A stretch of DNA of 35,079 nucleotides from a virus. The position numbers and the translations under genes are program-made. The first letter of the stretch is position 1. The number at the start of each line of letters is the position of its first letter. The stretch spans positions 28,130 through 63,208 of the IMG/VR virus record IMGVR_UViG_3300003322_000642. The stretch is one strand, 5' to 3'. Shown here one piece after another: positions 37-19,505 of this stretch. The notes beneath the pieces are model-generated. The model was given only the letters and a program-made list of their open reading frames with translations, was not told where the DNA came from and searched no databases.

Positions 37-1488
37 ATGCCCGAGATCGACAGCTTCGGCTACGACCCGCGCTACGACTACCAGCCGGAGGTGGTCAAGC
101 GGCTCCGCAAGCACGGCCAGATCATTGCTCAGATCGCCACCGGCGGCGGCAAAAGTCGCATCGCCCGTCTGTGCTTCGCCTCGATCAATCTGCCGACCCT
201 GTTCCTGACCACGCGCGGCATTCTGATGTACCAGATGAAGGATGCGTTCGAGGGCATGGGCATCCCGGTATCGGTGCTGGGCGACGGCCAATTCGGGCAT
301 ACCTTCGTCGACGAGCAGGGAGTCGAACGGCAAGCGATCAAGAAGATGTGCGTGGGCATGGTCCAGACCCTGATCGCCCGCCTTGAGGAAAAGACCGTCG
401 ACGGCGAGCTGGAGAAGATGATGGACGCGCGCATCAAGAAGGAGCTGAAGGACTACAAGGCGTACGAAACGCGGCTGGTGGCACTGGGCGGCCCGGTCGC
501 CACGCGCAAGGCCCAGCTGAAGGCGTTCGAAGCGCAGCAGGAGGCCGAGCGCAAGAAGTTGGTCGGTTCCATGAAGGCTGACGCCGCCGCCAAGGTCTCG
601 GCCCACATGCGCGAGCGCGCGCGAACGATCGCCTTGCTCGAGCGATTCGGCCTCGTCATTCTGGAGGAGGCGCACGAGGCGTCAGGCAACAGCTACTACG
701 AGATCCTGCGCCACTGCAAAAATGCCCACTACCGCCTGGCGCTGACGGCGACGCCGTTCATGAAGGATAACGAAGAATCGAACATGCGGCTGATGGCATG
801 TTCTGGTCCGATCGCCATCAAGGTATCGGAGCAAATGCTGATCGACCGCGGCATCCTGGCCCAGCCGCACTTCAAATTCATTCAGCTCAAGCACAAACCG
901 GAGAAGCTCTTTCGCGGTACGGGCTGGCAGTCAGCATATCGCATGGGGATCGTCGAAAACGAGTACCGCAATGGCCTCATCGTCTCCGAGTGCAGGAAGA
1001 TGGCTGACCACGGTCTCACATCGATGGTCCTCATTCAGCAGACGCGCCACGGTGAGATCCTGGAGCAGGAAATGCGCGACGTGGGGCTGCGCGTGGAGTT
1101 CATCAAGGGTGAAGATGATCAGGAGGGCCGTAAGCGCGCGCTCAAGAAGCTGGCCGGCGGGCTGCTCGATGTCCTGATCGGCACCACGATCCTCGACGTA
1201 GGCGTCGACGTGCCGGCGGTGGGTCACGTTTGCTTGGCAGGCGGCGGCAAGGCTGAGGTGGCGCTGCGTCAGCGGATCGGCCGCGGACTGCGCGCCAAGA
1301 AGACTGGCCCGAACATCTGCTTCGTCACGGATTTTGCCGATGCCTTCAATGAGCACCTGGCCACGCACGCGGCGCAGCGTCAGGCGATCATTAAGGGCAC
1401 GCCGGGGTTCGAGCGCTTCGTGTACGAGCACGGGCGCGACTTCGGCCTTCCGGCGTTGGGCTTTCCGCAGATGAGAATTGCAGCCTGA
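37..1488 (+). CDS. SF2 DEAD/DEAH-like helicase
   Basis: ATP-dependent superfamily 2 DNA/RNA helicase, similar in plan to phage UvsW-type and type III restriction-like helicases. Walker A ATGGGKS lies at residues 34-40, the Walker B variant EEAH at 210-213, motif III LTATP at 236-240, and a C-terminal RecA domain carries GTTILDVGVDVP and the arginine-finger motif RQRIGRGLR. A charged, probably coiled-coil insert (about 115-200) separates motifs Ib and II. Likely roles are fork or recombination-intermediate remodelling. The frame is open to base 1 and the ATG at 37 has a poorly spaced GGAG, so the true start may lie upstream of the window. Family is certain; the UvsW-like role is inferred. Confidence 0.9.
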   Translation: MPEIDSFGYDPRYDYQPEVVKRLRKHGQIIAQIATGGGKSRIARLCFASINLPTLFLTTRGILMYQMKDAFEGMGIPVSVLGDGQFGHTFVDEQGVERQAIKKMCVGMVQTLIARLEEKTVDGELEKMMDARIKKELKDYKAYETRLVALGGPVATRKAQLKAFEAQQEAERKKLVGSMKADAAAKVSAHMRERARTIALLERFGLVILEEAHEASGNSYYEILRHCKNAHYRLALTATPFMKDNEESNMRLMACSGPIAIKVSEQMLIDRGILAQPHFKFIQLKHKPEKLFRGTGWQSAYRMGIVENEYRNGLIVSECRKMADHGLTSMVLIQQTRHGEILEQEMRDVGLRVEFIKGEDDQEGRKRALKKLAGGLLDVLIGTTILDVGVDVPAVGHVCLAGGGKAEVALRQRIGRGLRAKKTGPNICFVTDFADAFNEHLATHAAQRQAIIKGTPGFERFVYEHGRDFGLPALGFPQMRIAA

Positions 1489-2579: not shown

Positions 2580-2702
2580 ATGAGCATCCACACGAAGCGG
2601 CGCACCATCGACATCACGCCAGCCGCCCACAAGGCCGTGGCCAAGCTGAATAACCTGCCGGCGGACAAGCTGGCCGCCCTTCTTGACCGGACCGAGCAAT
2701 GA
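2580..2702 (+). CDS. Tiny hypothetical protein (40 aa)
   Basis: Forty-residue basic protein, first gene of a three-gene run behind an AAGTCA-type operator. Its stop overlaps the next start (ATGA), indicating translational coupling. The N-terminal part (TKRRTIDIT) followed by helical segments resembles the start of small ribbon-helix-helix or similar DNA-binding proteins, but it is too short to assign. No clear Shine-Dalgarno is visible. Confidence 0.55.
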   Translation: MSIHTKRRTIDITPAAHKAVAKLNNLPADKLAALLDRTEQ

Positions 2703-3009
2703 AGCGCTGGTTCATGAAGCCGGGTCCCGCACCAATCAACGATCTGGTCCACCACGTCGAGTTTGAATTCGACGAGGACTCTGGCAGCGTCGCACGCCGC
2801 GCGATTCGGCACGACTGCAACCAGGCATCGCTCTGTCCTTGGAACTTCAGGGACGCGATGAGCTTGGTTGGATCCGGCAATTGGGTTGAGGTGATCAAGG
2901 ACGAGGAAACGGGCGAGTGGGCCGCACCTGACCAAGCCGAACTGCGGCAATCGCAAAGAAGCGCGCCCACGATCCGGACACGCCGGACACGACGGGGATG
3001 GTCTGGTGA
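2699..3009 (+). CDS. Hypothetical protein interrupted by a -1 indel
   Basis: Starts in an ATGA overlap with the previous gene. The reading frame looks genuine from MKRWFMKPG to about AELR near 2949 (EFEFDEDSG, VIKDEETGEWAA). It then becomes an arginine-rich shadow running to 3106. Adding one base in the CTGCGGCAATC stretch restores a sensible tail (AIAKKRAHDPD...GMVW) that stops at 3007-3009, exactly overlapping the next gene's GTG start. So the true product is about 103 residues, and the sequence has either a one-base loss in a G-run or a real lesion. Function unknown. Confidence 0.55.
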
Positions 3010-3194
3010 GCACCTACGACCAATACCGACAGCTGCGGCGCGAGTGCGGCTACAGCGACGACTTTGGCTACTTGGGCAAAAACGTATGGGAAGGCTGCGA
3101 GTCTGACAGTCAAGCGAATATGCTGGAGCAGCTGCGCGTGGTCGCACGGGCGCGCCAGGCCGATCTGGACAAGTACGAAGGGGATCACTGGTGA
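3006..3194 (+). CDS. Small hypothetical protein (62 aa)
   Basis: Third gene of the small plus-strand operon; GTG start overlapping the repaired stop of its neighbour (GTGA). The product is acidic and helical with many Tyr, Gln and Arg residues (STYDQYRQLRRECGY), has no signal or membrane segment, and is not recognised. The 150 bases that follow hold no gene. They contain a TTGCGA at 3246 that could serve as a -35 for the toxin module downstream. Confidence 0.6.
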   Translation: MSTYDQYRQLRRECGYSDDFGYLGKNVWEGCESDSQANMLEQLRVVARARQADLDKYEGDHW

Positions 3195-3343: not shown

Positions 3344-3538
3344 ATGAACACCGTGACTAAGGATATTGATACTCGAGTAGAGCCGTCGCCGGTTTTGACA
3401 ACGGAAGACCCGCTGGTGCAGGCCCGCGCGCGCCGCCTGGCTGCCCTGAAAGCGGCTGAAGGGCTTTGGAAAGACCGCACCGACATACCGAAAGACGGCG
3501 TCAAGGCCCAGGAGCAACTGAGGGCTGAATGGCACTGA
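3344..3538 (+). CDS. Putative antitoxin of the PIN module (64 aa)
   Basis: A small, charged protein immediately upstream of a PIN-domain toxin, overlapping its start by 10 bases, which is the usual order for VapBC-type modules. GGGAGG sits 6 bases before the ATG, favouring this start over an in-frame ATG at 3314. The middle (DPLVQARARRLAALKAAEG) is a basic helix and the C-terminus is charged. No classic AbrB or RHH fold is obvious, so the antitoxin call rests mainly on position. Confidence 0.6.
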   Translation: MNTVTKDIDTRVEPSPVLTTEDPLVQARARRLAALKAAEGLWKDRTDIPKDGVKAQEQLRAEWH

Positions 3539-3996
3539 TCCTATTCGACACCAATATCTTCATTGACATGCTCGGTGGCTGCAAGCAGGCGACCATCGAG
3601 CTTTCCAGCTACGATTTCCCCGCCATTAGTGCAGTCACCTATATGGAGCTACGCGCCGGCCAGATGCTCCGCCCGCACGAAAAGCCGATCCTGGACGTGC
3701 TGCTCGCCGAGTTCCAGGTGATCCAGATTGACCAGATGGTGATGGAACGCGCAATCGAAATCCGCGGTACGAGCCTAGCTACCGGCCCCAAGGTAAAGCT
3801 GCCCGACGCAATCATCGGTGCGACCGCCGCAGCGTACAGAATTCCGATCGTCACGCGCAACCCGAAGGACTTCCAGTGGGAGGGGATCGACGTTCACGTC
3901 CCCTATGACTATGACTCGGCCACCGGCGCGGTCACGAACGTGCGCCCGACCTTCACCGCCTTCCAGCCGCGCCCGCCCATCATCCGCATCAAGTAG
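3529..3996 (+). CDS. PIN-domain ribonuclease toxin (VapC-like)
   Basis: PIN-domain Mg-dependent RNase. The acidic quartet is visible: D7 in LFDTNIFID, E40 in YMELRAG, D93 in KLPDAIIGATA, and D114 in VTRNPKDF. The PIN core is about 120 residues. A C-terminal extension of about 35 residues rich in Pro and Tyr (VPYDYDSATGAV...) is longer than usual for VapC. Coupling with the upstream gene supports a type II toxin-antitoxin pair, which would fit plasmid-like or lysogenic maintenance. The extension could interact with the antitoxin or a target RNA (inference). Confidence 0.85.
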   Translation: MALILFDTNIFIDMLGGCKQATIELSSYDFPAISAVTYMELRAGQMLRPHEKPILDVLLAEFQVIQIDQMVMERAIEIRGTSLATGPKVKLPDAIIGATAAAYRIPIVTRNPKDFQWEGIDVHVPYDYDSATGAVTNVRPTFTAFQPRPPIIRIK

Positions 3997-4217: not shown

Positions 4218-5000
4218 ATGACGAGCAAGCTAAGTGGATTGCTTATCCGTGCGCCACACATCGACCGCATTCTACGCGGTGAAAAAACGTGGGAAATGCG
4301 CTCGACCCAAACCACGAGGCGTGGAACTATTGCGCTAATCGAGAGCGGGACAGGAACCGTTGTGGGCTTGGCGGACCTGATCGATTGCTGCGGACCACTG
4401 CCGCTTCAAGAGCGCAAGGATGCATCTGGCAAACATGGCCTGTCCGCCATTGACTGGGAAAATCCAGACTATGCGAAATACAGCTTTGCTTGGGTCTTGG
4501 ATAATGTACGGGCGCTCGAAGTACCAGTTCCATACACGCACAGGAGCGGGGCCGTAATATGGGCAAATCTTGACGAGGCAGTTAGCGAACGCGTTTTCTT
4601 GGCGGCGTGCGCAAGACGTCGGCAAGTTGATGAGTATTCGTCAAAAAACATTGACGTGTCATTATCATACTCGCAATCGAGTGCCAAATCTTCGACGAGC
4701 GGCAGACATCCCAATTTGACTGATACCTGCGTGCCGTTCGCAAGGGACGGCACCTGCTTTCATTTTGGCTTGGCTGTTGGCGGCGTATTCACAGTCGGAG
4801 AGAAGATGGCTGAACAGAAATTTAGCAGCTATGCGGAGGCACTCGCGCACCTGAGGAAAATGAAGGTTGCGAAATGGCGCCGGCCGAACTCAATAACAGG
4901 TAAGAGAGGAATAGTTTCAGCGGTCGAATGGCGGGATGGGGGTAGTGCGAGTGACGCAACTTCCCTCCGAACTCAGCGGCCTGCCGACAACAAAAAGTGA
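4218..5000 (+). CDS. ASCH-domain protein
   Basis: Residues about 5-120 form an ASCH (PUA-like beta-barrel) domain: GLLIRAPHIDRILRGEKTWE, then a beta-rich segment with VVGLADLIDC. ASCH domains bind RNA or modified nucleotides and some cleave N4-acetylcytidine. The C-terminal part (about 195-245: KFSSYAEALAHLRKMKVAKWRRPN) is a separate basic segment, so the protein may be bipartite. The start is chosen for its CAGGGA site; an upstream in-frame ATG (4182) lies almost on the promoter. It overlaps the next gene (GTGA). Exact activity unknown. Confidence 0.75.
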   Translation: MTSKLSGLLIRAPHIDRILRGEKTWEMRSTQTTRRGTIALIESGTGTVVGLADLIDCCGPLPLQERKDASGKHGLSAIDWENPDYAKYSFAWVLDNVRALEVPVPYTHRSGAVIWANLDEAVSERVFLAACARRRQVDEYSSKNIDVSLSYSQSSAKSSTSGRHPNLTDTCVPFARDGTCFHFGLAVGGVFTVGEKMAEQKFSSYAEALAHLRKMKVAKWRRPNSITGKRGIVSAVEWRDGGSASDATSLRTQRPADNKK

Positions 5001-5413
5001 TATCTGTGACAAAATCCACGTACCTCGCCCTCGTGGGCGCACTCGTCTCGCTCGTTGGCTGCGCGTCGACCCCGTCTGACGTGCGCAGCAGCGCTTATCG
5101 GTCGTCGTTCGTCGTCGAGCGAAACTACCAGGCCACGTATCGCTCGCTCCTGGAGCGTCAGCAAGCTTGCGAGCAAGCGAACTTCATCGCGTCTCAGACC
5201 CTTGTCGAGGGCCAGCTATACACGGATATCCAGTCGGGCACGATCACCTCGGCAATCCACGTGCCCTTGTACACCCAGACCACGGCGGTCCTGGATATCA
5301 AGGCGATGGGCGAAAAGTCCTCGGAGGTAACGCTCACCACCCAGTACGACGTGGTCGCCAAGTATGTGTCCAGACTTCAGAAATGGCTCGCCGGCAGCCG
5401 AGAGTGCTCCTGA
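4997..5413 (+). CDS. Lipoprotein 1 of a triplicated family
   Basis: Secreted lipoprotein: a short N-region, a hydrophobic core, and lipobox LVGC with the acylated Cys near residue 22, so it is predicted to be membrane-anchored. The mature part (about 115 residues) holds a Cys pair (ACEQ near 55 and the terminal ECS), which could form a disulfide. It is clearly paralogous to the genes at 5548-5955 and 6979-7230 (shared YQATY, GQLYTDIQSGTIT, KWLAGSRECS). The start is GTG in a GTGA overlap with the ASCH gene, or a second GTG at 5006. Possible surface or exclusion role by context only. Confidence 0.75.
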   Translation: MISVTKSTYLALVGALVSLVGCASTPSDVRSSAYRSSFVVERNYQATYRSLLERQQACEQANFIASQTLVEGQLYTDIQSGTITSAIHVPLYTQTTAVLDIKAMGEKSSEVTLTTQYDVVAKYVSRLQKWLAGSRECS

Positions 5414-5472
5414 CACCGCGACGTGTGACATCTTAAAGCCACTGCCTCAACAACAGACTGTCGCAGCATAAG

Positions 5473-5495
5473 ACTCACATAATTTTCATGTGAGT
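5473..5495 (+). promoter_or_regulatory. RHH-type operator, copy 1
   Basis: Inverted repeat ACTCACAT-N7-ATGTGAGT, followed by the remnant start of a ribbon-helix-helix gene. The -10 seen in the other two copies (TATAAT) has decayed here to CATAAG. Confidence 0.7.
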
Positions 5496-5501
5496 TAAAC
5501 C

Positions 5502-5540
5502 ATGACTGAAACTGTACCATATACAATTGCTAACGAAAAT
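5502..5540 (+). pseudogene. Truncated ribbon-helix-helix regulator
   Basis: The first 13 codons (MTETVPYTIANEN) match the start of the regulator genes at 6062 and 7282. The homology then ends and the frame runs on as a shadow inside the following lipoprotein gene to a stop at 5663. The operator and start are kept but the DNA-binding helices are gone, so this is the scar of a deletion that fused a regulator leader to lipoprotein 2. Confidence 0.7.
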
Positions 5541-5547
5541 AATATCC

Positions 5548-5955
5548 ATGAAGAAATTCACCTACCTGATTCTCGTGGGCACACTCGTCTCGCTCGTTGG
5601 CTGCGCTACGGCGCCGGCCGAGATCCGCACGCCGGCCCGCCAGTACGCTTTCATCGTGCCTGAAGGCTACCAGGCCGTCTACCAGAAAGCCTACGACCGG
5701 GCGCGTGCCTGCTACCAGATCAACGCCGTCGGTGCCGACATCACGGTCCAAGGCGACCTGCACGCCGACACGAAAACCGGCGAGATCGTCATGGCCTGGC
5801 ACAACGGGCTGGGCGGCGACGCACAGCGCGTGATCGACGTTCAGGCTATCGACGCCACGCATACGAAGGTAGTCGGATCGTTCAAGAGCGGCCCGGTCGA
5901 TCGCCTGGGCGCGGTCCTTCAGCGCTGGTTCACGGAAGACTCCAAGGCTTGCTGA
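5548..5955 (+). CDS. Lipoprotein 2 of a triplicated family
   Basis: Lipoprotein with signal MKKFTYLILVGTLVSLVGC (lipobox LVGC, Cys19) and a mature domain of about 116 residues. Spaced identities with lipoprotein 1 include YQAVYQKAYDRARACYQ, VQGDLHADTKTGEI and the C-terminal Trp and Cys (RWFTEDSKAC). The two conserved Cys (after RA and at the end) again suggest a disulfide. The start is taken from the signal peptide; a longer in-frame ATG at 5527 is upstream. Expression is probably driven from the operator at 5473-5495, left by the truncated regulator. Function unknown. Confidence 0.75.
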   Translation: MKKFTYLILVGTLVSLVGCATAPAEIRTPARQYAFIVPEGYQAVYQKAYDRARACYQINAVGADITVQGDLHADTKTGEIVMAWHNGLGGDAQRVIDVQAIDATHTKVVGSFKSGPVDRLGAVLQRWFTEDSKAC

Positions 5956-6026
5956 TGATCATCCTCGCGACGGGCGTCCACTGTGCTCGTAATTGCCGCA
6001 GCCTCGCTGAGGGTGCGCAATCGCAG

Positions 6027-6056
6027 TATAATACTCACATGATTTTTCATGTGAGA
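6027..6056 (+). promoter_or_regulatory. RHH promoter and operator, copy 2
   Basis: TATAAT (6027-6032) is followed directly by ACTCACATGA-N4-TCATGTGAGA (6033-6056), placing the palindrome over the transcription start and next to the regulator ATG at 6062. No good -35 is seen. This layout is typical of autorepression. Confidence 0.75.
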
Positions 6057-6061
6057 TAAAT

Positions 6062-6343
6062 ATGACTGATACTGTCCGTTATACGATCGAGGTCGCAACA
6101 GATGTGCGTGAGGCGCTTATTGCTGTATCCAAGGAGTTCAAGCTCACCCAAGGTGAGATCATTGATGAGCTGCTAAATCACCTGGATCGAGAGAAAATGA
6201 TCCCAATATTCATTGCCCGCCGTCAGGCTAAGGTGTCAGCGCGTGAGGACAAGAAGGAAGACAAGAAGAAGCTGACGAATCTGCTCCGCTCCCTGACGCC
6301 TGAGCAAATCGCCGAACTGCAGCGGCGAGCGAACGAGAAATAA
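6062..6343 (+). CDS. Ribbon-helix-helix regulator 1 (93 aa)
   Basis: The N-terminal half fits an Arc/MetJ/CopG-type ribbon-helix-helix: strand VRYTIEV (residues 5-11), helix A about 14-27 (VREALIAVSKEFKL), turn TQGE, helix B to about 41. The C-terminal half is basic with a Lys/Glu-rich segment (about 62-72) and ends in a helix with PEQIAEL. As a dimer it would insert the beta-strand into the major groove; the palindrome at its own promoter is the obvious target (inference). It is paralogous to the gene at 7282-7560. The GTGAGA of the operator is the only Shine-Dalgarno-like sequence. Confidence 0.75.
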   Translation: MTDTVRYTIEVATDVREALIAVSKEFKLTQGEIIDELLNHLDREKMIPIFIARRQAKVSAREDKKEDKKKLTNLLRSLTPEQIAELQRRANEK

Positions 6344-6365
6344 CTCGTTTAGTTCAATCACAATT

Positions 6366-6917
6366 ATGATGCATCGACTTTACTTATTTTCCGCCCTGGC
6401 ATTCTCTATTTCTGTCGTCTCTCTGGCTCACAGCCAGGAATTGGAAGACGATCAAACGGATGACTCACTCTACGCAGGCGCTAGCATTGATGCTGAGAAA
6501 TGTTATGACATGAAATGGCTTCGGAGAGAAATGTGGGTAGCAAAGCGCGACGCCGGCATGCTGACAAGATACCCACCTCTCGATGAATACGACAGCGAGT
6601 GGACAAGGCGGTATAAACGTGAGGTAGCGAGAACAAAGTTAGAATCTTTGGAAGCGAAGATTCCGGCAGTGAAAGTCGCCTGTCAGGCACATGAGGAGAA
6701 GGCCGCGGCAGAAGCAGCGGAAAAAGCGCGGGTAGCAAAACTTCCTAGTGTCCGTATCGGCATGACCGAAAAACAAGTACTTACGAGGACAAGCTGGGGT
6801 AAGCCTGATTCTATCAATAGGACGACTACAGCTCAGGGCACTACCGAACAGTGGGTTTACGGCGATGGGCAGTACCTCTATTTCACTAACGGTAAGCTTA
6901 CTGTAATCCAAAATTAA
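6366..6917 (+). CDS. Secreted protein with BamE/SmpA-like C-terminal domain
   Basis: Signal peptide (residues 1-23, cleavage near AHS-QE), then a Lys/Arg/Glu-rich helical region with two Cys (about 46 and 105) and an Ala/Glu-rich coiled segment. The C-terminal 55 residues contain IGMTEKQV, a Trp-Gly-Lys-Pro loop and the paired strands EQWVYGDGQYLYF / GKLTVIQ. That is the signature of the small BamE/OmlA-like beta domain found in periplasmic proteins. It follows the RHH gene by 22 bases, likely the same transcript. A localisation to the periplasm is expected; the precise role is unknown. Confidence 0.65.
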   Translation: MMHRLYLFSALAFSISVVSLAHSQELEDDQTDDSLYAGASIDAEKCYDMKWLRREMWVAKRDAGMLTRYPPLDEYDSEWTRRYKREVARTKLESLEAKIPAVKVACQAHEEKAAAEAAEKARVAKLPSVRIGMTEKQVLTRTSWGKPDSINRTTTAQGTTEQWVYGDGQYLYFTNGKLTVIQN

Positions 6918-6956
6918 CTCTTAACTATCTAATGAGTCCTATCTATAAGGATAGGC
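6918..6956 (+). repeat. R repeat, copy 1 (hairpin-containing)
   Basis: A 39-base element that begins CTCTTAACTATCTAATG and ends in the hairpin CCTATC-TATAAG-GATAGG. It is one base different from the copy at 8835-8873. It follows the stop codon directly and may act as a weak terminator. A second inverted repeat (GCATTCCT...AGGAATGC) follows at 6956-6980, at the junction with the dead lipoprotein copy. Confidence 0.8.
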
Positions 6957-6978
6957 ATTCCTAGGCGGTCCAGGAATG

Positions 6979-7230
6979 CGCGACTGCTCGGAAACGGGCC
7001 TAATCACGGCCTCGATCGTCGTGCACGGCGACCTGTTTCATGACATCAAATCTGGCACGATCACGACGTAGCTTCACGGTGCCCTTGGCGTGCAGACCTT
7101 GGCGGTCGTGGATCTAAAGTTCATCGACGACCAATCCACGGAAATTATCGCTACATCCAGCTCGGGCAAGCCTGGCGAGTATGCGAACGTGATCCGGAAG
7201 TGGCTCGCCGGCAGTAAAGAATGCTCTTGA
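6979..7230 (+). pseudogene. Dead lipoprotein 3 (5'-truncated, internal stop)
   Basis: In one frame this region matches the C-terminal two thirds of lipoproteins 1 and 2 (VVHGDLFHDIKSGTITT, AVVDLKFID, RKWLAGSKECS). The signal peptide is missing and an in-frame TAG interrupts it straight after GTITT. The upstream border coincides with the R repeat and its adjoining inverted repeat, suggesting a recombination junction. Confidence 0.85.
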
Positions 7231-7245
7231 TTAGTGCAGGAGCGC

Positions 7246-7275
7246 TATAATACTCACATGATTTTTCATGTGGGA
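7246..7275 (+). promoter_or_regulatory. RHH promoter and operator, copy 3
   Basis: TATAAT (7246-7251) directly followed by ACTCACATGA-N4-TCATGTGGGA (7252-7275), seven bases before the regulator ATG. Nearly identical to copy 2. Confidence 0.75.
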
Positions 7276-7281
7276 TAAATC

Positions 7282-7560
7282 ATGACCGAAACCGTTCGCT
7301 ACACTATTGAGACTACTCCAGATGAGCGTGATGATTTGGCAGTGATTGCCAAGCAATACAAGCTATCCCAAGGTGAAATTATTGGATGCTTGTTAAGACA
7401 CTTCGATCGCGAAGCAATGGCGCCAGTTTTCACGGCACAACGCGAGGCAAAAGTAGCTGTACGCGAAGACAACAAAAAGATAAAAAAACTGGTCAACTCT
7501 CTTCGCTCACTGGACCCTGAGCAGATTGCAGAACTGCACCGCTTGGCTAACGAGAAGTGA
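7282..7560 (+). CDS. Ribbon-helix-helix regulator 2 (92 aa)
   Basis: Paralog of the 6062 gene along its whole length: strand VRYTIET, helix A DERDDLAVIAKQYKL, turn SQGE, helix B to about residue 41, then the basic linker and C-terminal PEQIAEL. Most differences lie in helices A and B (for example LLRHFDRE for LLNHLDRE), while the DNA-contacting strand is nearly unchanged, so both copies probably read the same operator. GGGATAAATC before the ATG provides a weak ribosome site inside the operator. Confidence 0.75.
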   Translation: MTETVRYTIETTPDERDDLAVIAKQYKLSQGEIIGCLLRHFDREAMAPVFTAQREAKVAVREDNKKIKKLVNSLRSLDPEQIAELHRLANEK

Positions 7561-7707
7561 TACTTATGAAGAAGCCTAATGAACTTTGCTGTCACTTTCG
7601 CTCTGCCATTAGCGCATGGGCAATACAGAATTATTTCTTGCCTCGGCATTACAAAACGATAATATTAAATACCAAGTTGACAATCAACCATTTAAGGAAA
7701 ACTTGCA

Positions 7708-8253
7708 GTGTTCTATCGAGCAAAAATCGTTTTTATTTCCGCTCTAGTATGTGGCGCCTCACTTCAGGGTTGTGCAACATATACTCCACCTCCCCCACCC
7801 ACATTCTCCTGGGGCCAATCTATTGATTTTGAAGGACTTTCATTTAGCTTCAAATCTGTAGAAAATAGCACCTATTATAAAAATTGGATCGGTCATGTTA
7901 CGTACGCAGGCGATAATTTTGTTACCATCGAATTAACTATGGTCAACAGAACGGGTATGCCGTTACCCACACACTTGCAACCAATCTTTCGCTTGATTGA
8001 CAAATCGGGCGCTGTCTACGAATCAAGTCTTTCCCATACAATTGCGATCAACATGGGCAAACCTGGACGCCCCAGCCCCGGCATGAACATGAACCCCAAT
8101 ATAACTGTTACGCAAGAAATTGTGTTCGAGGCTCCACGACAATCCACATATCAGGTACAAGCTATAATCCCAAACCGCGCCCGCATGGGGTTTGACGGAA
8201 GCGTTACTTCATCTGGTCCATACTTCCTTATGGACATCTCATCTCAGCTCTAA
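7708..8253 (+). CDS. Lipoprotein with DUF4352-like domain
   Basis: Signal peptide with lipobox LQGC (Cys22) followed by a Pro-rich linker (TPPPPPTF). The rest is an immunoglobulin-like beta-sandwich with the pattern of DUF4352/Mpr-type extracytoplasmic domains: FSFKSVENS, DNFVTIELTMVNRTG, FRLIDKSGAVYESS, then VTQEIVFEAP. It starts at GTG with AAGGA about 9 bases upstream. The 147 bases before it (7561-7707) look like a degenerate remnant (an ATGAAGAAG start at 7566 in poor sequence) and contain TTGACA at 7678. Composition is AT-richer than the right half, consistent with later acquisition. Confidence 0.7.
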   Translation: MFYRAKIVFISALVCGASLQGCATYTPPPPPTFSWGQSIDFEGLSFSFKSVENSTYYKNWIGHVTYAGDNFVTIELTMVNRTGMPLPTHLQPIFRLIDKSGAVYESSLSHTIAINMGKPGRPSPGMNMNPNITVTQEIVFEAPRQSTYQVQAIIPNRARMGFDGSVTSSGPYFLMDISSQL

Positions 8254-8318
8254 AGTACCGTGCGCTCACTTGGTCTCAGATTCAAATGTGCGCAAGAATT
8301 TTTACGAACAAGATACAT

Positions 8319-8822
8319 ATGAAACGTGAATTTCTGGCAGTAGTGCTGGCCTCCCTTGCTATAAGTGCCAACTGTGCAGACAAATCAACAGTCAAGCGCC
8401 AAATGCAGGCGGATTTTATTTCCGATGCGAGAAATACAATAAATCTCTGCAGTCAAAAATACCGTGAATATGTCGAGGTAAAGCGCATGAACCAATACGC
8501 CTACGAGCAGGGACTCAGAGCTGACGAAGCAATGGCCCGGCTTGAAACGGCGACTGGGAAAGACACTCGCGACTTGCCTTCGACAAAGCTTGAGAAGACT
8601 GTCGAATACCATGTTCTGTGCATGGAGAAGTCAAAGGAACTTTTGCTTCCTCGATCAAAAGGTTTTATTTCTTCGTTCAAGACGGCACGTGAACAGAGCG
8701 ACGCGAAGACAATGATCGCACAGTGGATGACCGCAATTGACTCCGTTGGCAAGCCCATAGGTCAGAGCGAGGCGGCAAAATTTGAAACGCTCGCGAATGG
8801 GTTAGAGATTGATATGCAGTAA
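8319..8822 (+). CDS. Secreted hypothetical protein (167 aa)
   Basis: N-terminal signal peptide MKREFLAVVLASLAISANC; the Cys at 19 could be a weak lipobox or a disulfide partner. The mature part is helical and charged, with Cys near 45 and 108 (NLCSQKY, HVLCMEK), and ends in acidic residues. No family recognised. It lies 65 bases after the DUF4352-like lipoprotein and is followed by R repeat copy 2, so it closes the cell-envelope gene block. The start is chosen from the signal peptide over an in-frame ATG 11 codons upstream. Confidence 0.65.
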   Translation: MKREFLAVVLASLAISANCADKSTVKRQMQADFISDARNTINLCSQKYREYVEVKRMNQYAYEQGLRADEAMARLETATGKDTRDLPSTKLEKTVEYHVLCMEKSKELLLPRSKGFISSFKTAREQSDAKTMIAQWMTAIDSVGKPIGQSEAAKFETLANGLEIDMQ

Positions 8823-8834
8823 CGCCGTCGAGCG

Positions 8835-8873
8835 CTCTTAACTATCTAATGGGTCCTATCTATAAGGATAGGC
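8835..8873 (+). repeat. R repeat, copy 2
   Basis: Near-identical copy of the 6918-6956 element (CTCTTAACTATCTAATGG... plus hairpin CCTATC/GATAGG), again just after a plus-strand gene. GTTTT follows the hairpin, so it may terminate transcription. R1 and R2 are direct repeats bounding a 1.9-kb block. Confidence 0.8.
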
Positions 8874-8986
8874 GTTTTCGGCAGTTCCCGGAAATATAAG
8901 GATGGGTTCTCGGAGATCGGAAGTTGAGGAAGGCAGGGCCATCAGCGGGTCGAAATTTTTCTAGGACTTCGACCTTTCGCGCTCGG

Positions 8987-9150: not shown

Positions 9151-9168
9151 ACTCACATGTGACTTATC
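9151..9168 (-). promoter_or_regulatory. AAGTCA-type operator variant
   Basis: GATAAGTCACATGTGAGT on the minus strand, overlapping the stop of the 9167 gene. TTTGAT just upstream could be a -10 for the 38-aa membrane gene. The right half (GTGAGT) also resembles the RHH operator half-site. Confidence 0.4.
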
Positions 9169-9835
9169 AAACTTGATTGAGTTCATCTTCGATCTGTTCA
9201 GCGGTCGTTACCAATGCTGCAATCTTATCGAACCGCTCACAGAACAGCGATTTACCCTCGTCGGTAAAAGTAAAGTCTGCATTTTTCGTACCCTTCGAGT
9301 TATCGCTCAACCCGAGAATGCGCATTGCTTCTTTCGTGCTAGACAGTTGCGTACTGCCCGTACCTGCTGTGTAGTTATTACGCTCGCGCAGCAGTTCGCT
9401 AATATCTTCCCCCCATTCGACCTTAACGAGGGTTGCAAACGCTGCTTTGCTTGACAGTTTCCCGTTAAGCATCGCGTTAACCGTCAGCGATGCAGTGTGA
9501 CGATCTAATGCGCGCATGTCTTTGTTTGCGAGTGCGAAAATCAGTTTGTTAATTTTCTCGATGACTTTTGCTTGCACATAGTTGCTATCGTTCGCACCGT
9601 CTTGTTTCGCTTTCCCGATGATGCGAAGTAAGAAAGCGAAGTCGATTTGATCTTTAACCGCTTCGACCGCACGTTCAAACGATGTACGGTGCTTCCCATC
9701 GGGCTGATACAGTTCGTTGATCTTCTTAAACTCACTAGCGACGTGTTCGCCCGCGTCTAATAAAGCTTGCACGCGGGTTGTTACCGATGTGCCCAGCTTG
9801 TTAATGATCGTCGATGCTTTCATTGCTTTACCCAT
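9167..9835 (-). CDS. Hypothetical phage protein (222 aa)
   Basis: Unrecognised soluble protein. The N-terminal half is helical (KASTIINKLGTSVTTRVQALL, VKDQIDFAFLLRIIGKAKQDG). The middle has alternating basic and hydrophobic helices (KVIEKINKLIFALANKDMRAL). The C-terminal third may be a small winged or helical domain ending in an acidic helix (QIEDELNQV). No catalytic motif or signal is visible. GGGAG lies 7 bases before the ATG, inside the third copy of the R-repeat core. Its own promoter and a structured leader of about 130 bases are visible upstream. Confidence 0.7.
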   Translation of the reverse strand: MGKAMKASTIINKLGTSVTTRVQALLDAGEHVASEFKKINELYQPDGKHRTSFERAVEAVKDQIDFAFLLRIIGKAKQDGANDSNYVQAKVIEKINKLIFALANKDMRALDRHTASLTVNAMLNGKLSSKAAFATLVKVEWGEDISELLRERNNYTAGTGSTQLSSTKEAMRILGLSDNSKGTKNADFTFTDEGKSLFCERFDKIAALVTTAEQIEDELNQV

Positions 9836-9844
9836 TTTGTTACT

Positions 9845-9861
9845 CCCATTAGATAGTTAAG
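9845..9861 (-). repeat. R repeat core, copy 3 (inverted, in a leader)
   Basis: CTTAACTATCTAATGGG on the minus strand, identical to the first part of R1/R2 but without the hairpin, and here forming the ribosome-binding region of the 9835 gene. Confidence 0.7.
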
Positions 9862-9973
9862 AAATATGCTTTGTTGCCCGGTCAGTACCTGCGCGATCTG
9901 AACCACAGTACCGGGCGCGCGGTTATGTAACCTGCGCATCACAGCAAATCGTTTTGTTTGCTGCGATGTGGTT

Positions 9974-10099: not shown

Positions 10100-10341
10100 T
10101 GCCCGCTCGACGAGGCGAAATCCTGGGTAAATGAAACGCTTAGGCGATAGAGTGGCTTTCCTAGGCATCGCCATGGCGCAGCCGACTGAGCGCATATTCC
10201 AAGGCTGAAGAAACCTCCAATACACGTCGCCGAGGCTAACATTCCATGAAACCTCCAATGACTGTCGCCTTGGCTGCCGTTCCGCTATGTCTTGTAGACG
10301 TCGCCATAGCTGATCCTAGGCGCATCCTAGGCATAGGTAGA
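10100..10341 (-). repeat. Type B intergenic module, copy 3
   Basis: No gene is visible in 10003-10396. The region holds degenerate 38-base units (10210-10240, 10248-10279, and a weaker one near 10286-10318) reading GGTTTC...GCGACAGTCATTGG on the minus strand, plus clustered CCTAGG and CCATGG palindromes. Related units occur at 11719-11788 and 12986-13019. A perfect 12-base palindrome AACGGAACCGTT lies nearby at 10047-10058. Confidence 0.6.
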
Positions 10342-10347
10342 GGCGTC

Positions 10348-10373
10348 AAGAAAAGGCGTTACACGCGCCCTTT
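10348..10373 (-). terminator. Intrinsic terminator
   Basis: On the minus strand, stem GGCG/CGCC with a 7-base loop, then TTTTCTT, 24 bases after the 47-aa gene. Confidence 0.6.
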
Positions 10374-10396
10374 CTTATTGGACGTCACACTATGTA

Positions 10397-10540
10397 TTAC
10401 ACCGAGTATGGTTCCTGTCCGAACATGATGAAGTAGGTCTGTTCAAATGGAATGTCGCGGTTACGCATGTAACGCGGAAACATCCAACGTCCCATGCGGC
10501 GCATCTTCTTGCGATAGAAGGCGATCAGGTCTTGGCTCAT
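10397..10540 (-). CDS. Small basic protein (47 aa)
   Basis: Well-marked tiny gene: AAAGGAGAG 6 bases before ATG. The product is rich in Arg, Lys, Met and aromatic residues (FYRKKMRRMGRWMFPRYMRN), then IPFEQTYFIMFGQE. Net charge is strongly positive at the N-terminus, suggesting nucleic-acid or membrane-surface binding. It is followed by a terminator. Not recognised. Confidence 0.65.
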   Translation of the reverse strand: MSQDLIAFYRKKMRRMGRWMFPRYMRNRDIPFEQTYFIMFGQEPYSV

Positions 10541-10745
10541 GACGCTCTCTCCTTTCCGGTCCGTGTTCGCTACCGCAGGCGGCGTACATCATCGTTTCCG
10601 CACAGGGCGCTTCGATGAAGTTGCCGAAGTCGTCGGTGATGAACACGAGCGCAGTGCCAAGGGCTGGGCATCGCACAATGTTCGCACCAAGCAAGTGGAG
10701 CGGTTCTACGGTCATTGCGAAGGCGCGTAAGGTGATTCCGGTCAT
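10461..10745 (-). CDS. Hypothetical protein (about 94 aa, tail doubtful)
   Basis: The start is placed by analogy with the 12256 gene: both follow the same type A leader repeat and begin MT right after it. The first 57 residues (LGANIVRCPALGTALVFITDDFGNFIEAP) look like a genuine beta-rich domain. The last 27 or so are a shadow of the downstream 47-aa gene. An 80-base overlap is unusual, and a stop in another frame (TAG just after the MMYAACG codons) suggests a one-base indel may have removed the true end. Function unknown. Confidence 0.5.
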   Translation of the reverse strand: MTGITLRAFAMTVEPLHLLGANIVRCPALGTALVFITDDFGNFIEAPCAETMMYAACGSEHGPERRERHEPRPDRLLSQEDAPHGTLDVSALHA

Positions 10746-10924
10746 GGCGTTCTCGCTGGTTGCTGTGTTGTTGAAAGCATCATCATCGCGACCAGAAGCA
10801 GGCATGTGGTTGGACCTGGATGGCTGGGTGAAGTCTTCCTTATGTGGGTGAAAGCGTCCTCACCGGCTGGCCTGGCGCCTGGCCTGACGGCCTCGGCGTG
10901 GCCTACGGCCGGTGTAACGCCTGA

Positions 10925-10990
10925 CGGCCTGCATATGGCCTGTGGATGGCCTGCGTACGGCCTGTGGATGGCCTGCGTACGGCCTGTGGA
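10925..10990. repeat. Tandem 22-base repeat, three units
   Basis: Units at 10925-10946, 10947-10968 and 10969-10990; the last two are identical (TGGCCTGCGTAC then GGCCTGTGGA). It lies inside the type A module and is absent from copy 2. Confidence 0.8.
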
Positions 10991-11027
10991 TGGCCTCGGC
11001 AACGCCTTGGCTTGGCCTGGGAGGGTC

Positions 11028-11052
11028 AGAGGGCACAGCCTGCGTGCCCTCT
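11028..11052 (-). terminator. Terminator-like hairpin
   Basis: Perfect 9-base stem AGAGGGCAC/GTGCCCTCT with a 7-base loop, 36 bases after the stop of the 11088 gene. No long T-run. An equivalent hairpin ends the gene at 12536. Confidence 0.55.
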
Positions 11053-11087
11053 TGTTACGCTTGAATCAAGTGCACCCGATGAACTCG

Positions 11088-11456
11088 TCAGGCGCACCGT
11101 ACTCGCTGGTCTTGCCCGTACTCCGGGAACTCGGTCAGACGATGTTGGATCAGCTCGACGAACTTCGCGTTGGCGGAGCGCTCAGTGTCGTCTTTCCAAA
11201 CATACACTTCGATCAGGTCTCCATCGTTCAGTTCGTCACCGTTCTCAGGACCGTAGACCTCCAGCACGGTTTTAACCAAGAGAACGTCGTAATGAGAACC
11301 GTCGGAGCAGCAGTCGTAGGAGATGACCTCAAACAATCGCTCAGAAATCACCGCGAACCGGTGGTCTAATAATTCTTGTGCGCTCGCCAACGTCTCTGCG
11401 AACCCAGTGTCGTTTTCCCATTCGATTGGATAATAGTAGCGGTCTGCTCGTTTCAT
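11088..11456 (-). CDS. Hypothetical protein (122 aa)
   Basis: Acidic soluble protein with many Asp, Glu and Tyr (RADRYYYPIEWENDTGF, GPENGDELNDGDLIEVYVWKDD). Predicted beta strands around FEVISYDCCSDGSHYDVLLVKTV and a C-terminal helix. No known motif. The start is chosen because AAGGG lies 7 bases upstream, just below a long leader hairpin; an in-frame ATG 16 codons earlier falls inside that hairpin. It is a stand-alone gene with its own leader and terminator. Confidence 0.65.
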   Translation of the reverse strand: MKRADRYYYPIEWENDTGFAETLASAQELLDHRFAVISERLFEVISYDCCSDGSHYDVLLVKTVLEVYGPENGDELNDGDLIEVYVWKDDTERSANAKFVELIQHRLTEFPEYGQDQRVRCA

Positions 11457-11470
11457 CTGCTGCCCTTGAT

Positions 11471-11506
11471 GTGTGGTTGAAAGAGATTGCATCTTCTCAA
11501 CCACAC
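11471..11506 (-). promoter_or_regulatory. Long leader hairpin before the 11456 gene
   Basis: Perfect 10-base arms (GTGTGGTTGA / TCAACCACAC), with further pairing inside (GAAGAT against ATCTC), giving a stem of about 16 pairs around a GCA loop. It ends 5 bases before the ribosome site, so it may stabilise the mRNA or affect initiation. Confidence 0.65.
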
Positions 11507-11826
11507 ACCGGCATGTGACCGGACGGCTGAATCCCGCCTAGCCACCTTCTCCCGGCAAATGCCGCTTCCTTGGCTGCTCCTAGTGCCGCGTGCCACCGCC
11601 ATGGCTCGTCCAAGGCGCGCCGAGGAAGATTCCCTGCCCACGCGAGCGTCAGGCTGTCAAGGCAAGTCCATGGCGCACATATGGAACAAGCCTGCCTTGC
11701 GCCTGTACGCGCACACGTGAAACCCCCAATGACTGTCGCAATGGTTGCCGTTCGGAGAAACCTTGGAATCATGTCGCCATGGCTGCCGTTCCTTGGACGG
11801 TCCAAGGCAACCATGAAGGCGTAAAG
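11507..11826 (-). repeat. Type B intergenic module, copy 2
   Basis: Gene-free GC-rich stretch with two 38-base-spaced units (11719-11750, 11757-11788) and a block (CGCCGAGGAAGAT, TCCAAGGCGCG, CATGGCGCACA) that is also present near 12890-12955. Several CCATGG/CCTAGG-like palindromes are present. Confidence 0.6.
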
Positions 11827-11847
11827 AAAAGGCACCCGAAGGCGCCC
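11827..11847 (-). terminator. Intrinsic terminator
   Basis: Minus strand: GGGCGCC-TTCG-GGTGCC followed by TTTTCTTT, a stable tetraloop stem right after the 11856 gene. Confidence 0.85.
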
Positions 11848-11855
11848 TGAAATTA

Positions 11856-12044
11856 TTATTCCAAGCTGGAGATTAGGTTGAACATCATTTCCCGCTGGGT
11901 AGTAACTTCATGCAATGCGCGGAGGTATATTTCGCACAGGAATGCACGATCTTCAGTGGCGATCCGCTCAAGAGTTCCTTCAATATGGTCTTTGGCGTCG
12001 TCAAGTTCATTCAACCTAGCATCCAGTGATTTATAGTTAGACAT
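11856..12044 (-). CDS. Small coiled-coil protein (62 aa)
   Basis: Highly helical, acidic protein (SLDARLNELDDAKDHIEGTL, then RIATEDRAFLCEIYLRALHE) with heptad-like Leu/Ile spacing, probably a dimerising coiled coil. AGGGAG precedes the ATG by 7 bases. Second gene of a two-gene operon with the 60-aa gene at 12074 and closed by a strong terminator. Not recognised. Confidence 0.65.
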   Translation of the reverse strand: MSNYKSLDARLNELDDAKDHIEGTLERIATEDRAFLCEIYLRALHEVTTQREMMFNLISSLE

Positions 12045-12073
12045 GGTTTTCTCCCTATAGACATGTAAGGTGT

Positions 12074-12256
12074 TTAATAAAAACCCAGAGCATCAGCTCC
12101 GCGACCAACGATGTTTTCCCATTGGCTGAATGTAATGTCGCCTATGTTCACCGCATCGGTAGCAGCATTGCAGATCCTTTCGATGAATAAGCTGCTCGGG
12201 CGCGCACAGCTCTCAATGGCGTGCATTAAACGGTCTAATTTTGCGTACATGGTCAT
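12074..12256 (-). CDS. Small hypothetical protein (60 aa)
   Basis: First gene of the two-gene operon, directly behind a type A leader module. Starts MTMYAKLDRL, with GAGAG 6 bases upstream. Predicted helices (LDRLMHAIESC, SLFIERICNAATDAVN) and an aromatic C-terminus (SQWENIVGRGADALGFY). No known family. The 29-base gap to the next gene and the shared terminator support co-transcription. Confidence 0.65.
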   Translation of the reverse strand: MTMYAKLDRLMHAIESCARPSSLFIERICNAATDAVNIGDITFSQWENIVGRGADALGFY

Positions 12257-12535
12257 GACGATCTCTCAGGTTGGTTGCTGCGTCGTGCTGCAGTACCGTC
12301 ATGATCGCGACCAGAAGCAGGCATGTGGCTGGCCCAACATGGCTGGGTGAAGTCTTCCTTATGTGGGCGAAAGCGCCCTCCTCGGCTGGCCTGGTGCCTG
12401 GCCTAGTGGCCTAGGATTTGCCTTGGCCTGGCCTACGGCCGGTGTAACGCCTGATGGCCTGACGGATGGCCGAGGAAAAGCCTAGGCGTGGCCTGGGAGG
12501 GAAGGACAACGGGCACCGCCTGGGTGCCCTCGGTC
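12254..12535 (-). repeat. Type A intergenic module, copy 2
   Basis: Homologous to 10743-11055 from the start codon of the downstream gene to the upstream gene's hairpin, but lacking the tandem 22-base units. Contains TGGCCTAGG and GGCCTACGGCC repeats and no supported gene. Confidence 0.75.
12511..12529 (-). terminator. Terminator-like hairpin
   Basis: GGGCACC/GGTGCCC stem with a 5-base loop, immediately after the stop of the 12536 gene; on the minus strand GTTGTCC follows. Confidence 0.55.
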
Positions 12536-12787
12536 TTACAGTTCGATGGATTTCTCGTCGTAGGTCTCGGCGTCGTCGTTAAAGCGCGAATCGAGGAGCT
12601 GCGCTGCTTCATCGGCGACTGCGGTCTGCACGTAGTACGGTTCGGACGGGAGGTCGATTTCGACCGTGTGCAGATCGGCGAAACCGAACTTGACACAGCC
12701 CAGGCGCACACCGATCTCGTCGTAGATGGCGATGGTCGCGCTGGTGTCGGCGTCGATGTCAAAGTTTTCGAGCTTTAAGGTTTTCAT
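12536..12787 (-). CDS. Hypothetical protein (83 aa)
   Basis: Very acidic protein beginning MKTLKLENFDIDADTSATIA, with beta strands (IAIYDEIGVRLGCVKFGF) then VEIDLPSEPYYVQTAV and a helical acidic tail (DAETYDEKSIEL). AAAGGG lies 8 bases before this ATG, preferred over an in-frame ATG 35 codons upstream in repeat DNA. Small acidic phage proteins of this type often inhibit host DNA-binding enzymes, but nothing here proves that. Confidence 0.65.
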   Translation of the reverse strand: MKTLKLENFDIDADTSATIAIYDEIGVRLGCVKFGFADLHTVEIDLPSEPYYVQTAVADEAAQLLDSRFNDDAETYDEKSIEL

Positions 12788-12829
12788 GGTGTTTGCCCTT
12801 TCAATGTGCGTTGTCGATATGTGTATGGT

Positions 12830-13030
12830 AGAGAGCGCATACCGGCGATAGATCGGCTGGTTCGCACCCGCCTGGGCCATGCGCCTGGTCACGCCGAGGA
12901 AGATCCTTCACCCATGCACGCACCAATCCGTCCAAGGCGAGTCCACGGCGCACACCAGGACCAAGCCGCCCTCCCCGCTCACGTGTAAAACCTCGGATAC
13001 TTCGTCGCCGCAGTTGCCGTTCCGAGGACT
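12830..13030 (-). repeat. Type B intergenic module, copy 1
   Basis: Gene-free stretch (12788-13364 holds no supported gene). Contains one 38-base-type unit (12986-13019) and the CGCCGAGGAAGATC / TCCAAGGCGAG block shared with 11600-11700. Near the gene it carries CATATCGACAACGCAC, a motif also found in the leaders of the 16053 and 20627 genes. Confidence 0.55.
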
Positions 13031-13050
13031 GTTTTCCTGTAGGCGTGACG

Positions 13051-13096
13051 ATGTATAAGATGAAGTTCCTATAGGCAGAACGCCGGTCTTATACAT
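13051..13096. repeat. 10-base perfect inverted repeat
   Basis: ATGTATAAGA (13051-13060) and TCTTATACAT (13087-13096) separated by 26 bases containing CCTATAGG. It could be a protein-binding site or a relic of a small mobile element; no transposase is nearby. Confidence 0.6.
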
Positions 13097-13194
13097 TTCC
13101 GGGGTATATTTAGGATGTGACCTTATTAGATTGACCGGAATGTGTAAGGTCGGACCGCGAGGTCCAAGGCGCGCTTCTTATACGTGCCGGCTTC

Positions 13195-18264: not shown

Positions 18265-18609
18265 TCACCACGCCGCTAAGGGTGCTGCTGCAGGACGATC
18301 CTTGCCCACACCGATTGGTGCCACGACGGGCTTCTGCTTGGGCAGCACCGGCATCAAAAAGCCGGGATGAATACGCCACTGACCACGCCCGATCGGATTG
18401 CCATACTCGTCGCACTCGTGCGCCAGGTAGTTCTTCGGCCCCTTGCCAGTAATCTTCAAGAGAATGTCACGGTCGTGCTTCTCCGAATAGAAGCTCGCCA
18501 GCTTGCCTGGGGCGAAGATGCGGCCGCGCCGCAGCTTAAATTCCTCATCGACCTGCATCTTGAGGCGCACCAGCGCGTCGTCGGGTAAGGCTTTCAGTTT
18601 GTCGTTCAT
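18265..18609 (-). CDS. Hypothetical protein (114 aa)
   Basis: ATGA overlap with the GIY-YIG gene and AAAGGAAAG upstream. A helical start (NDKLKALPDDALVRLKMQVD) is followed by a beta-rich centre (GKLASFYSEKHDRDILLKIT), then HECDEYGNPIGRGQWRIHPG and a Pro-rich tail. The central GRIFAPGKLASF and ILLKITGKG pattern suggests a small barrel that might bind nucleic acid, but no family is recognised. It may have been the original gene beside which the endonuclease inserted. Confidence 0.65.
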   Translation of the reverse strand: MNDKLKALPDDALVRLKMQVDEEFKLRRGRIFAPGKLASFYSEKHDRDILLKITGKGPKNYLAHECDEYGNPIGRGQWRIHPGFLMPVLPKQKPVVAPIGVGKDRPAAAPLAAW

Positions 18610-19505
18610 GCGGCTTTCCTTTCTTGCGAGGCAGTCGCCTCGTTGTAGATTTTGATGACGATGGCGGGGAACCACTGGTAGCTCGGCTCCGCGCCTTCTT
18701 TCCTGCTACTGAGCGTCGGCACCTTGTCCTCGGTAAGACGCTTCGCGATCTTGGAGAACGACAGCCCCTCCTCTTTGAGGGCAACGATCCGATCAGCGAC
18801 CTCCTTGCGTCGGGCGGCCAGGGTCGCCTTGCGGGACTCGACCATCTTGGCCCGAATGTCCGGGGTGATGACGTTCGTCGTTCGGCTGCGCTCCAAGAGC
18901 CGCTGGTAGTTCTCGTCGGAGAGCGGCTTGCCCTTCAAGGCAGCGCGCAGCTTCTCCTTTGTCGCTTCAGTGGTCACGCGCTTACGGCCGGCGGCGCCGA
19001 TCTTCGCGCGAGTCTCCTCACTGACCACCTTGCCGATCTGCGACTGTGCGATCTTGCGGCGGTGCTCCTCGGTGAAGATCCGACCCTCTGCCCTTGCCTT
19101 GCGCAGCGCGTCGGACAGCGCCTTGCGGTGCTCAGGACTCATGGGTGCGCGCGCCTTTGCCTTCGCGCTCATCTTGGCTCGCACCTCCGGCGGGTGCGGG
19201 ACACCGCAGCGGGAACCAGCGACCGGCGCAGTGTTGTAGCCATAGTCGCCGTTAGTGGCACGACGCTCGTCCATGATCCGCTGCTCCTCGCGCAGCAGAT
19301 CGTCCACGCTGCACTCGACCAGGATCTTGAAAACGAAGGCGTCCTCGCCATCCAGATTCCAGGCACGCTGCAGGTGTTGGCTGTGGTGCTTGCCGGCCCG
19401 CAGGTCGTTGCGGTGGATTCGCCAGCGCAGCGCGATGTTCTGCGAGCTGCCGATGTACTCCTTACCGTCAACCGTGTTCTGAATGGAATAAACGCCGCTT
19501 GTCAT
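18606..19505 (-). CDS. GIY-YIG homing endonuclease
   Basis: Free-standing homing endonuclease of the Seg/I-TevI type. The GIY-YIG nuclease fills residues 1-95: GVYSIQN at 4-10, YIGSSQNI at 17-24, catalytic Arg27, and Glu73/74 in LLREEQR. Then come repeated NUMOD3-like basic helices (SPEHRKALSDALRKAR, TEEHRRKIAQSQIGK, SEETRAKIGAAGRK) that would grip DNA. A C-terminal helix-turn-helix-like segment (VALKEEGLSFSKIAKRLTED) resembles recombinase DNA-binding ends. It probably spreads itself between related phages by cutting a nearby site. Its own operator lies upstream. Confidence 0.9.
   Translation of the reverse strand: MTSGVYSIQNTVDGKEYIGSSQNIALRWRIHRNDLRAGKHHSQHLQRAWNLDGEDAFVFKILVECSVDDLLREEQRIMDERRATNGDYGYNTAPVAGSRCGVPHPPEVRAKMSAKAKARAPMSPEHRKALSDALRKARAEGRIFTEEHRRKIAQSQIGKVVSEETRAKIGAAGRKRVTTEATKEKLRAALKGKPLSDENYQRLLERSRTTNVITPDIRAKMVESRKATLAARRKEVADRIVALKEEGLSFSKIAKRLTEDKVPTLSSRKEGAEPSYQWFPAIVIKIYNEATASQERKAA

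Follow-up and report, generated by a model that had tools for sequence, protein, structure and literature searches.

Autorepressors of the CopG/Arc kind (MetJ/Arc superfamily) are small proteins with an N-terminal strand-helix-helix that act at a palindrome in their own promoter. Toxin-antitoxin modules typically have a small RHH protein, a palindrome at the promoter, and a stop/start overlap. Phage morons (lysogenic-conversion genes) are accessory, carry their own promoter, are patchily distributed among relatives, and encode envelope-directed products. Among small phage lipoproteins, superinfection exclusion is well established for Llp of T5 (PMC9586334) and for Ltp (PMC3952083).

Here, we describe an array of RHH regulators and small exported-protein genes in a 35,079-nucleotide stretch of viral DNA (the window), which forms the right-hand end (35 kb) of a phage contig of 63,208 bases. 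A first-pass annotation had described a triplicated unit running from lipoprotein to operator to RHH regulator. From the anatomy and polarity of the array, its relatives, and the constraint on its operators, we consider it likely that the array is instead a series of accessory operons, arranged in tandem in a probable phage-plasmid and each consisting of a TATAAT box with a 9-4-9 palindrome, an RHH regulator, and exported cargo, and that the regulators repress their own promoter.

RESULTS

The source is probably a large phage-plasmid

The left part of the contig carries lambda-type tail genes, including a J-like fiber, on the minus strand. The helicase at window positions 37 to 1488 is closest to those of nickie-group Pseudomonas phages, followed by Rhizobium, Stenotrophomonas, and Klebsiella phages (44 to 52% identity to the nickie-group, Stenotrophomonas, and Klebsiella proteins), and the phages matched are mostly 108 to 120 kb in size. 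Gene-order comparison showed that ABC-type and ParB-like genes precede the helicase, as they do in Nican01, the annotation of which refers to SSU5; both core genes and gene order resemble those of nickie/SSU5-type phage-plasmids. A sibling contig of 111,592 bases (L012), whose convergent gene is 85% identical to that at window 9167 to 9835, has a ParA gene adjoining its lipoprotein gene; no ParA was found anywhere in the 63-kb record. Together, the helicase relatives, the Nican01-like gene order, and the ParA of the sibling suggest that the source is probably a large siphophage and a phage-plasmid of the nickie/SSU5 kind, the plasmid lifestyle being argued from its relatives.

The window also encodes a GIY-YIG homing endonuclease with a NUMOD3 motif (18606 to 19505). 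A non-coding region (10200 to 13100), in which 11-bp units (GGCCTGCGTAC/GGCCTGTGGAT) are repeated in tandem and a 142-nt block is duplicated, may serve in replication or partition. Scans with Rfam, for tRNAs, and with PADLOC all came back empty.

The regulator precedes its cargo

All parts listed in the first-pass annotation are present (two lipoproteins, two full regulators, a dead lipoprotein, a truncated regulator, and the palindromes), and the array additionally holds three genes, orf4, orf6, and orf7, and a duplicated intergenic element. On the plus strand, a probable 3'-end remnant of an RHH regulator, recognized by alignment to the tail of regulator 1 and now the tail of an ASCH-domain ORF (4967 to 5000), is followed by lipoprotein 1 (5006 to 5413; lipobox LVGC). 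Operator 0 (5467 to 5494), a palindrome with a 3-nt spacer behind a decayed −10 box, stands before an internally deleted RHH regulator (5502 to 5542; 0/20,000 shuffles as good) and lipoprotein 2 (5548 to 5955; LVGC). Operator 1 (6027 to 6055), with TATAAT and a perfect 9-4-9 palindrome, leads regulator 1 (6062 to 6343; 93 aa) and the exported protein orf4 (6366 to 6917), the C-terminal region of which matches phrog_11546. After the first copy of the intergenic element (6918 to 6976; CTCTTAACTATCTAATG..TATAAGGATAGG) comes the dead lipoprotein (6978 to 7231), of which the 5' part is missing and the remaining 3' part carries one in-frame TAG; its nearest relative is the lipoprotein of sibling L012 (46/82). 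Operator 2 (7246 to 7274), with TATAAT and a 9-4-9 palindrome containing one mismatch, leads regulator 2 (7282 to 7560; 92 aa), directly after which lies a possible leftover of a lipoprotein start (ATGAAGAAG; 7567 to 7575). The cargo here consists of orf6 (7708 to 8253), which is lipoprotein-like (LQGC; phrog_806, DUF4352-like below the cut-off), and orf7 (8319 to 8822), an exported protein with no assigned family. The second copy of the intergenic element (8835 to 8893) adjoins a gene common to the relatives, the convergent phrog_4202 gene on the minus strand (9167 to 9835), which serves as a synteny anchor in related contigs L005, L012, and L034.

Gapped alignments against 20,000 shuffles established the order of the unit. 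Immediately upstream of lipoprotein 2, the sequence GCTAACGAAAATAATATCCATGAAGAA matches the end of regulator 2 (GCTAACGAGAAGTGATACTTATGAAGAAG; 0/20,000 shuffles as good), and the stretch abutting lipoprotein 1 matches the tail of regulator 1 (7/20,000); the lipoprotein start junctions differ by a 1-nt indel. A regulator 3' tail thus precedes lipoprotein 2 and probably also lipoprotein 1. Given the tail before lipoprotein 2, the supposedly truncated gene is a regulator without its middle, and lipoprotein 2 is its downstream partner. It is indeed reduced to 13 codons, as had been noted; however, the loss is an internal deletion that left the first 9 and last 4 codons with the stop region, not a 3' truncation. 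The tails, together with the relatives described below, reverse the order first proposed: promoter and operator come first, then the RHH regulator, then the exported cargo. The array is probably a set of autoregulated accessory operons, some units of which are broken, and the repeated duplication and decay that had been proposed are borne out.

The intergenic element (59 nt) closes both the orf4 block and the orf6/orf7 block. That the cargo behind each intact regulator ends in this element suggests that these blocks were inserted or swapped as pieces. Its 17-nt start, CTCTTAACTATCTAATG, lies after orf4 (6918 to 6934) and after orf7 (8835 to 8851) and recurs with one mismatch on the other strand at 9847 to 9863, where it forms the leader of the convergent gene; none of the relatives examined has this sequence. 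A short intergenic motif, TATAAGGAT(N)GG, is repeated ahead of the conserved convergent gene in this phage and three relatives (window positions 6944 to 6955, 8861 to 8872, and 8895 to 8906; L005 at 5667, 5756, and 5791; L012 at 8947 and 8981 on the minus strand; L034 at 6591, 7007, and 7040). Our guesses for its role are a promoter, a partition site, or a recombination site.

Two diverged regulators retain one operator

Both window regulators match phrog_3203, a phage family without assigned function (regulator 1, E = 9e-7; regulator 2, E = 1.2e-6), as do the regulators of related contigs L005, L006, and L012 (E = 5e-5 to 9e-7 across all five). The L005 regulator also matches CopG-like/Arc-like PHROGs (phrog_7325, E = 3.8e-4; phrog_582, E = 4.9e-3), and a MatP_C trace was seen in that of L012. 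A profile search at Pfam cut-offs gave no RHH match for the window regulators. The predicted structure (pLDDT 73) has helices at residues 13 to 26 and 30 to 39 after an extended N terminus, and Foldseek returned CopG and several other RHH proteins, all non-significant (E about 1), with CopG at rank 2 (probability score 0.66; E = 1.2; root mean square deviation 1.3 over 36 columns). We assign these proteins to the RHH group from the PHROG matches of the relatives, the conserved residues, and this non-significant but consistent fold list.

Regulators 1 and 2 are 63% identical. Only 36% of third codon positions and 8 of 25 four-fold sites agree between them, and dS is saturated with a dN of 0.28, indicating that the proteins are under purifying selection. 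The palindromes before them (CTCACATGA-TTTT-TCATGTGAG; 6034 to 6055 and 7253 to 7274; shuffle P = 0.001 to 0.002) sit with the −10 box in a block that is identical at 34 of 35 positions between the two intact copies (binomial chance 2e-14 at a background of 0.36), and identity drops to about 0.3, the background level, just upstream of the −10 box. Set against regulator genes this diverged, such a block marks a constrained footprint rather than the trace of a recent copy. Both paralogous regulators probably bind one operator type, judging from this block, and the idea of an RHH switch with its own operator appears sound.

Allowing up to 6 mismatches, the 22-bp palindrome has no copies in the 63-kb record besides those in front of the two intact regulators and operator 0, which is 1 bp shorter, so control looks local. 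A search of viral contigs for the operator pattern returned only two unrelated hairpins, one of them terminator-like, with no regulator behind. Operators 1 and 2 are nearly perfect, as had been claimed of all three; operator 0 is less intact, with one arm change, a spacer of 3 instead of 4 nt, and CATAAG for TATAAT, its arms being largely kept. TATAAT ends 1 nt before the palindrome, so transcription is expected to start within the left arm; a search for −35 boxes at these promoters gave no good candidate. Every intact regulator, in the window and in the relatives, keeps TATAAT in front, and the −10 box is damaged at both loci with a deleted regulator (CATAAG and CACAAT).

Relatives carry single regulator-led loci

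Such a regulator, preceded by its own TATAAT, occurs once in each of four related phage contigs (L005, L006, L012, and L034), where it overlaps the downstream gene by ATGA. This gene encodes an exported protein in L005 and small non-exported proteins in L006, L012, and L034. In L034, five tandem small genes stand behind the regulator (5273 to 6564); four of the five end in a D-(A/H)-W type C terminus (tryptophan motif), and they are apparently diverged copies. No clear 9-4-9 palindrome was found in L005, L006, or L034, though TATAAT is present, and the operator type is therefore not conserved across the group.

The regulator copies listed by the first-pass annotation were confirmed, and a further remnant lies outside the range it covered. 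On the plus strand, behind a gene for a small membrane or exported protein (2241 to 2459; 72 aa), which is syntenic in L012 and L034, alignment identified the ortholog of the L012 regulator (2580 to 2702), which has lost about 55 internal residues in frame, leaving 40 aa. This remnant still overlaps its cargo gene (2699 to 3106) by ATGA; relative to the sibling, the cargo is frameshifted near its 3' end.

The lipoprotein is distributed differently. L012 has one lipoprotein with no RHH in front, no lipoprotein was found in L034, and a 51.6-kb virus record has a 36% identical relative beside tail genes. This distribution points to a moron-like gene that joined the regulator in this phage, and the window lipoproteins are old, divergent paralogs of it. 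As relatives show regulator without lipoprotein and lipoprotein without regulator, the units are in part unrelated insertions where cargo is concerned. Searches of annotated phages and plasmids, at both the DNA and the protein level, gave no match to the cassette, the regulators, lipoprotein 2, or the convergent gene, and regulator and lipoprotein profiles gave none in the GTDB genomes scanned.

The lipoproteins are old copies

Lipoproteins 1 and 2 are 34 to 36% identical; given this and the saturated dS of the regulators, the repeats described as a triplication are real, but they are not recent copies. Both resemble the BPTD_2524 family (NF046053) over about 100 residues, with scores of 38.2 bits (lipoprotein 1, E = 1.6e-9) and 40.5 bits (lipoprotein 2, E = 3.1e-10) that lie below the family cut-off of 50 bits. 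Lipoprotein 1, not lipoprotein 2, is nearer the single copy of sibling L012 (53% identity for lipoprotein 1). Between the two window genes the leader is identical at 49 of 60 nt and the mature alignment at only 161 of 339 nt, hinting, from small counts, at an exchange in lipoprotein 2 behind a shared leader. Selection for surface variation, as first proposed, is only suggested by this mismatch and by the closeness of lipoprotein 1 to the sibling copy. Lipoprotein 2 is an intact ORF with a dN of 0.58 below a dS of 1.20 relative to the lipoprotein of the sibling.

The best fold matches of the lipoprotein were Flpp3-type lipoproteins (E = 0.017), and in a PDB search up to E = 10 none of the solved Llp chains matched in sequence. 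By analogy, the cargo lipoproteins could act in superinfection exclusion, a role that we regard as possible but doubtful; another change to the host envelope is just as likely.

DISCUSSION

The unit would be built as TATAAT and a 9-4-9 palindrome, then an RHH regulator, with a small exported-protein gene immediately downstream. Regulators 1 and 2 would bind the palindrome and repress; because the palindrome starts a single base past the −10 box, an RHH oligomer sitting on it would lie over the start site and block its own promoter, setting the levels of regulator and cargo together. The cargo may then alter the envelope, perhaps excluding other phages. As to history, the regulator-plus-cargo locus, single copy in each of the four relatives, would be ancestral. 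In this phage, a diverged version of it may have been copied next to a lipoprotein moron, after which units would have duplicated, cargo would have been lost or replaced (orf4; orf6 with orf7), and the middle of two regulators would have been deleted.

In the reading first proposed, the unit runs from lipoprotein to operator to RHH regulator, the paralogs act in trans on lipoprotein 2 through operator 0, and duplication is driven by surface variation or exclusion. Operator 0 does keep most of both arms, the lipoprotein 2 ORF is intact and has a dN below its dS, and the leader/mature mismatch between the lipoproteins would fit surface variation. However, regulator tails precede the lipoproteins and the regulator comes first in the relatives, both contrary to a lipoprotein-first unit, and trans control is made doubtful by the decayed −10 box and the spacer that is 1 bp short. 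Damage to the −10 box at both deleted-regulator loci favors decay over trans control, and we consider this reading unlikely.

The small RHH protein, the promoter palindrome, and the stop/start overlap would also suit a toxin-antitoxin module, with an autorepressing RHH antitoxin and a toxin downstream, and a separate PIN-domain gene lies nearby (3529 to 3996). Yet at two loci the RHH gene is internally deleted and a cargo ORF still stands downstream, a combination incompatible with a lethal toxin; the cargo moreover differs between phages, amounts to five tandem small genes in L034, and matched no toxin family in profile searches. For the missing toxin match and the loss of RHH with the cargo ORF present, we set the type II toxin-antitoxin reading low, as highly improbable. 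The PIN-domain (VapC-like) gene, also found in the sibling (L012 reverse complement, 5099 to 5491), is possibly part of an addiction module in its own right. It is also very unlikely that the palindrome acts as a leader RNA hairpin in translational control instead of as a DNA operator. Transcribed in full, the palindrome folds into a 9-bp hairpin near the start codon (−15.9 kcal/mol including flank), but a transcript starting where expected, within the left arm, would retain no more than a weak stem (−4.1 and −6.7 kcal/mol).

Autoregulated, regulator-first operons show one way for a phage to accumulate accessory envelope genes under a switch that limits itself, a point of relevance to how phage-plasmids alter the host surface. 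They also give a concrete, testable regulatory unit for the unannotated phage family phrog_3203, and with two diverged paralogs and one operator kept almost letter for letter, binding, cross-regulation, and loss are directly testable. More speculatively, and with considerable doubt, RHH-led operons may serve as a loading platform, in which a fixed promoter-operator-regulator front end stays while envelope or small genes are swapped, duplicated, and lost behind it; if true, this would give fast-changing lysogen surfaces under one shared switch.

Compared with known systems, the window regulators resemble CopG/Arc autorepressors in a putative small N-terminal strand-helix-helix and in the palindrome at their own promoter, but differ in having a long helical C-terminal extension and in leading exported or small cargo genes. 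Like T5 Llp, the lipoproteins are small and phage encoded, in a different genetic context. The array cargo resembles phage morons in being accessory, patchy, promoter equipped, and envelope directed; unlike morons, it stands behind an RHH regulator of its own and has been multiplied in tandem.
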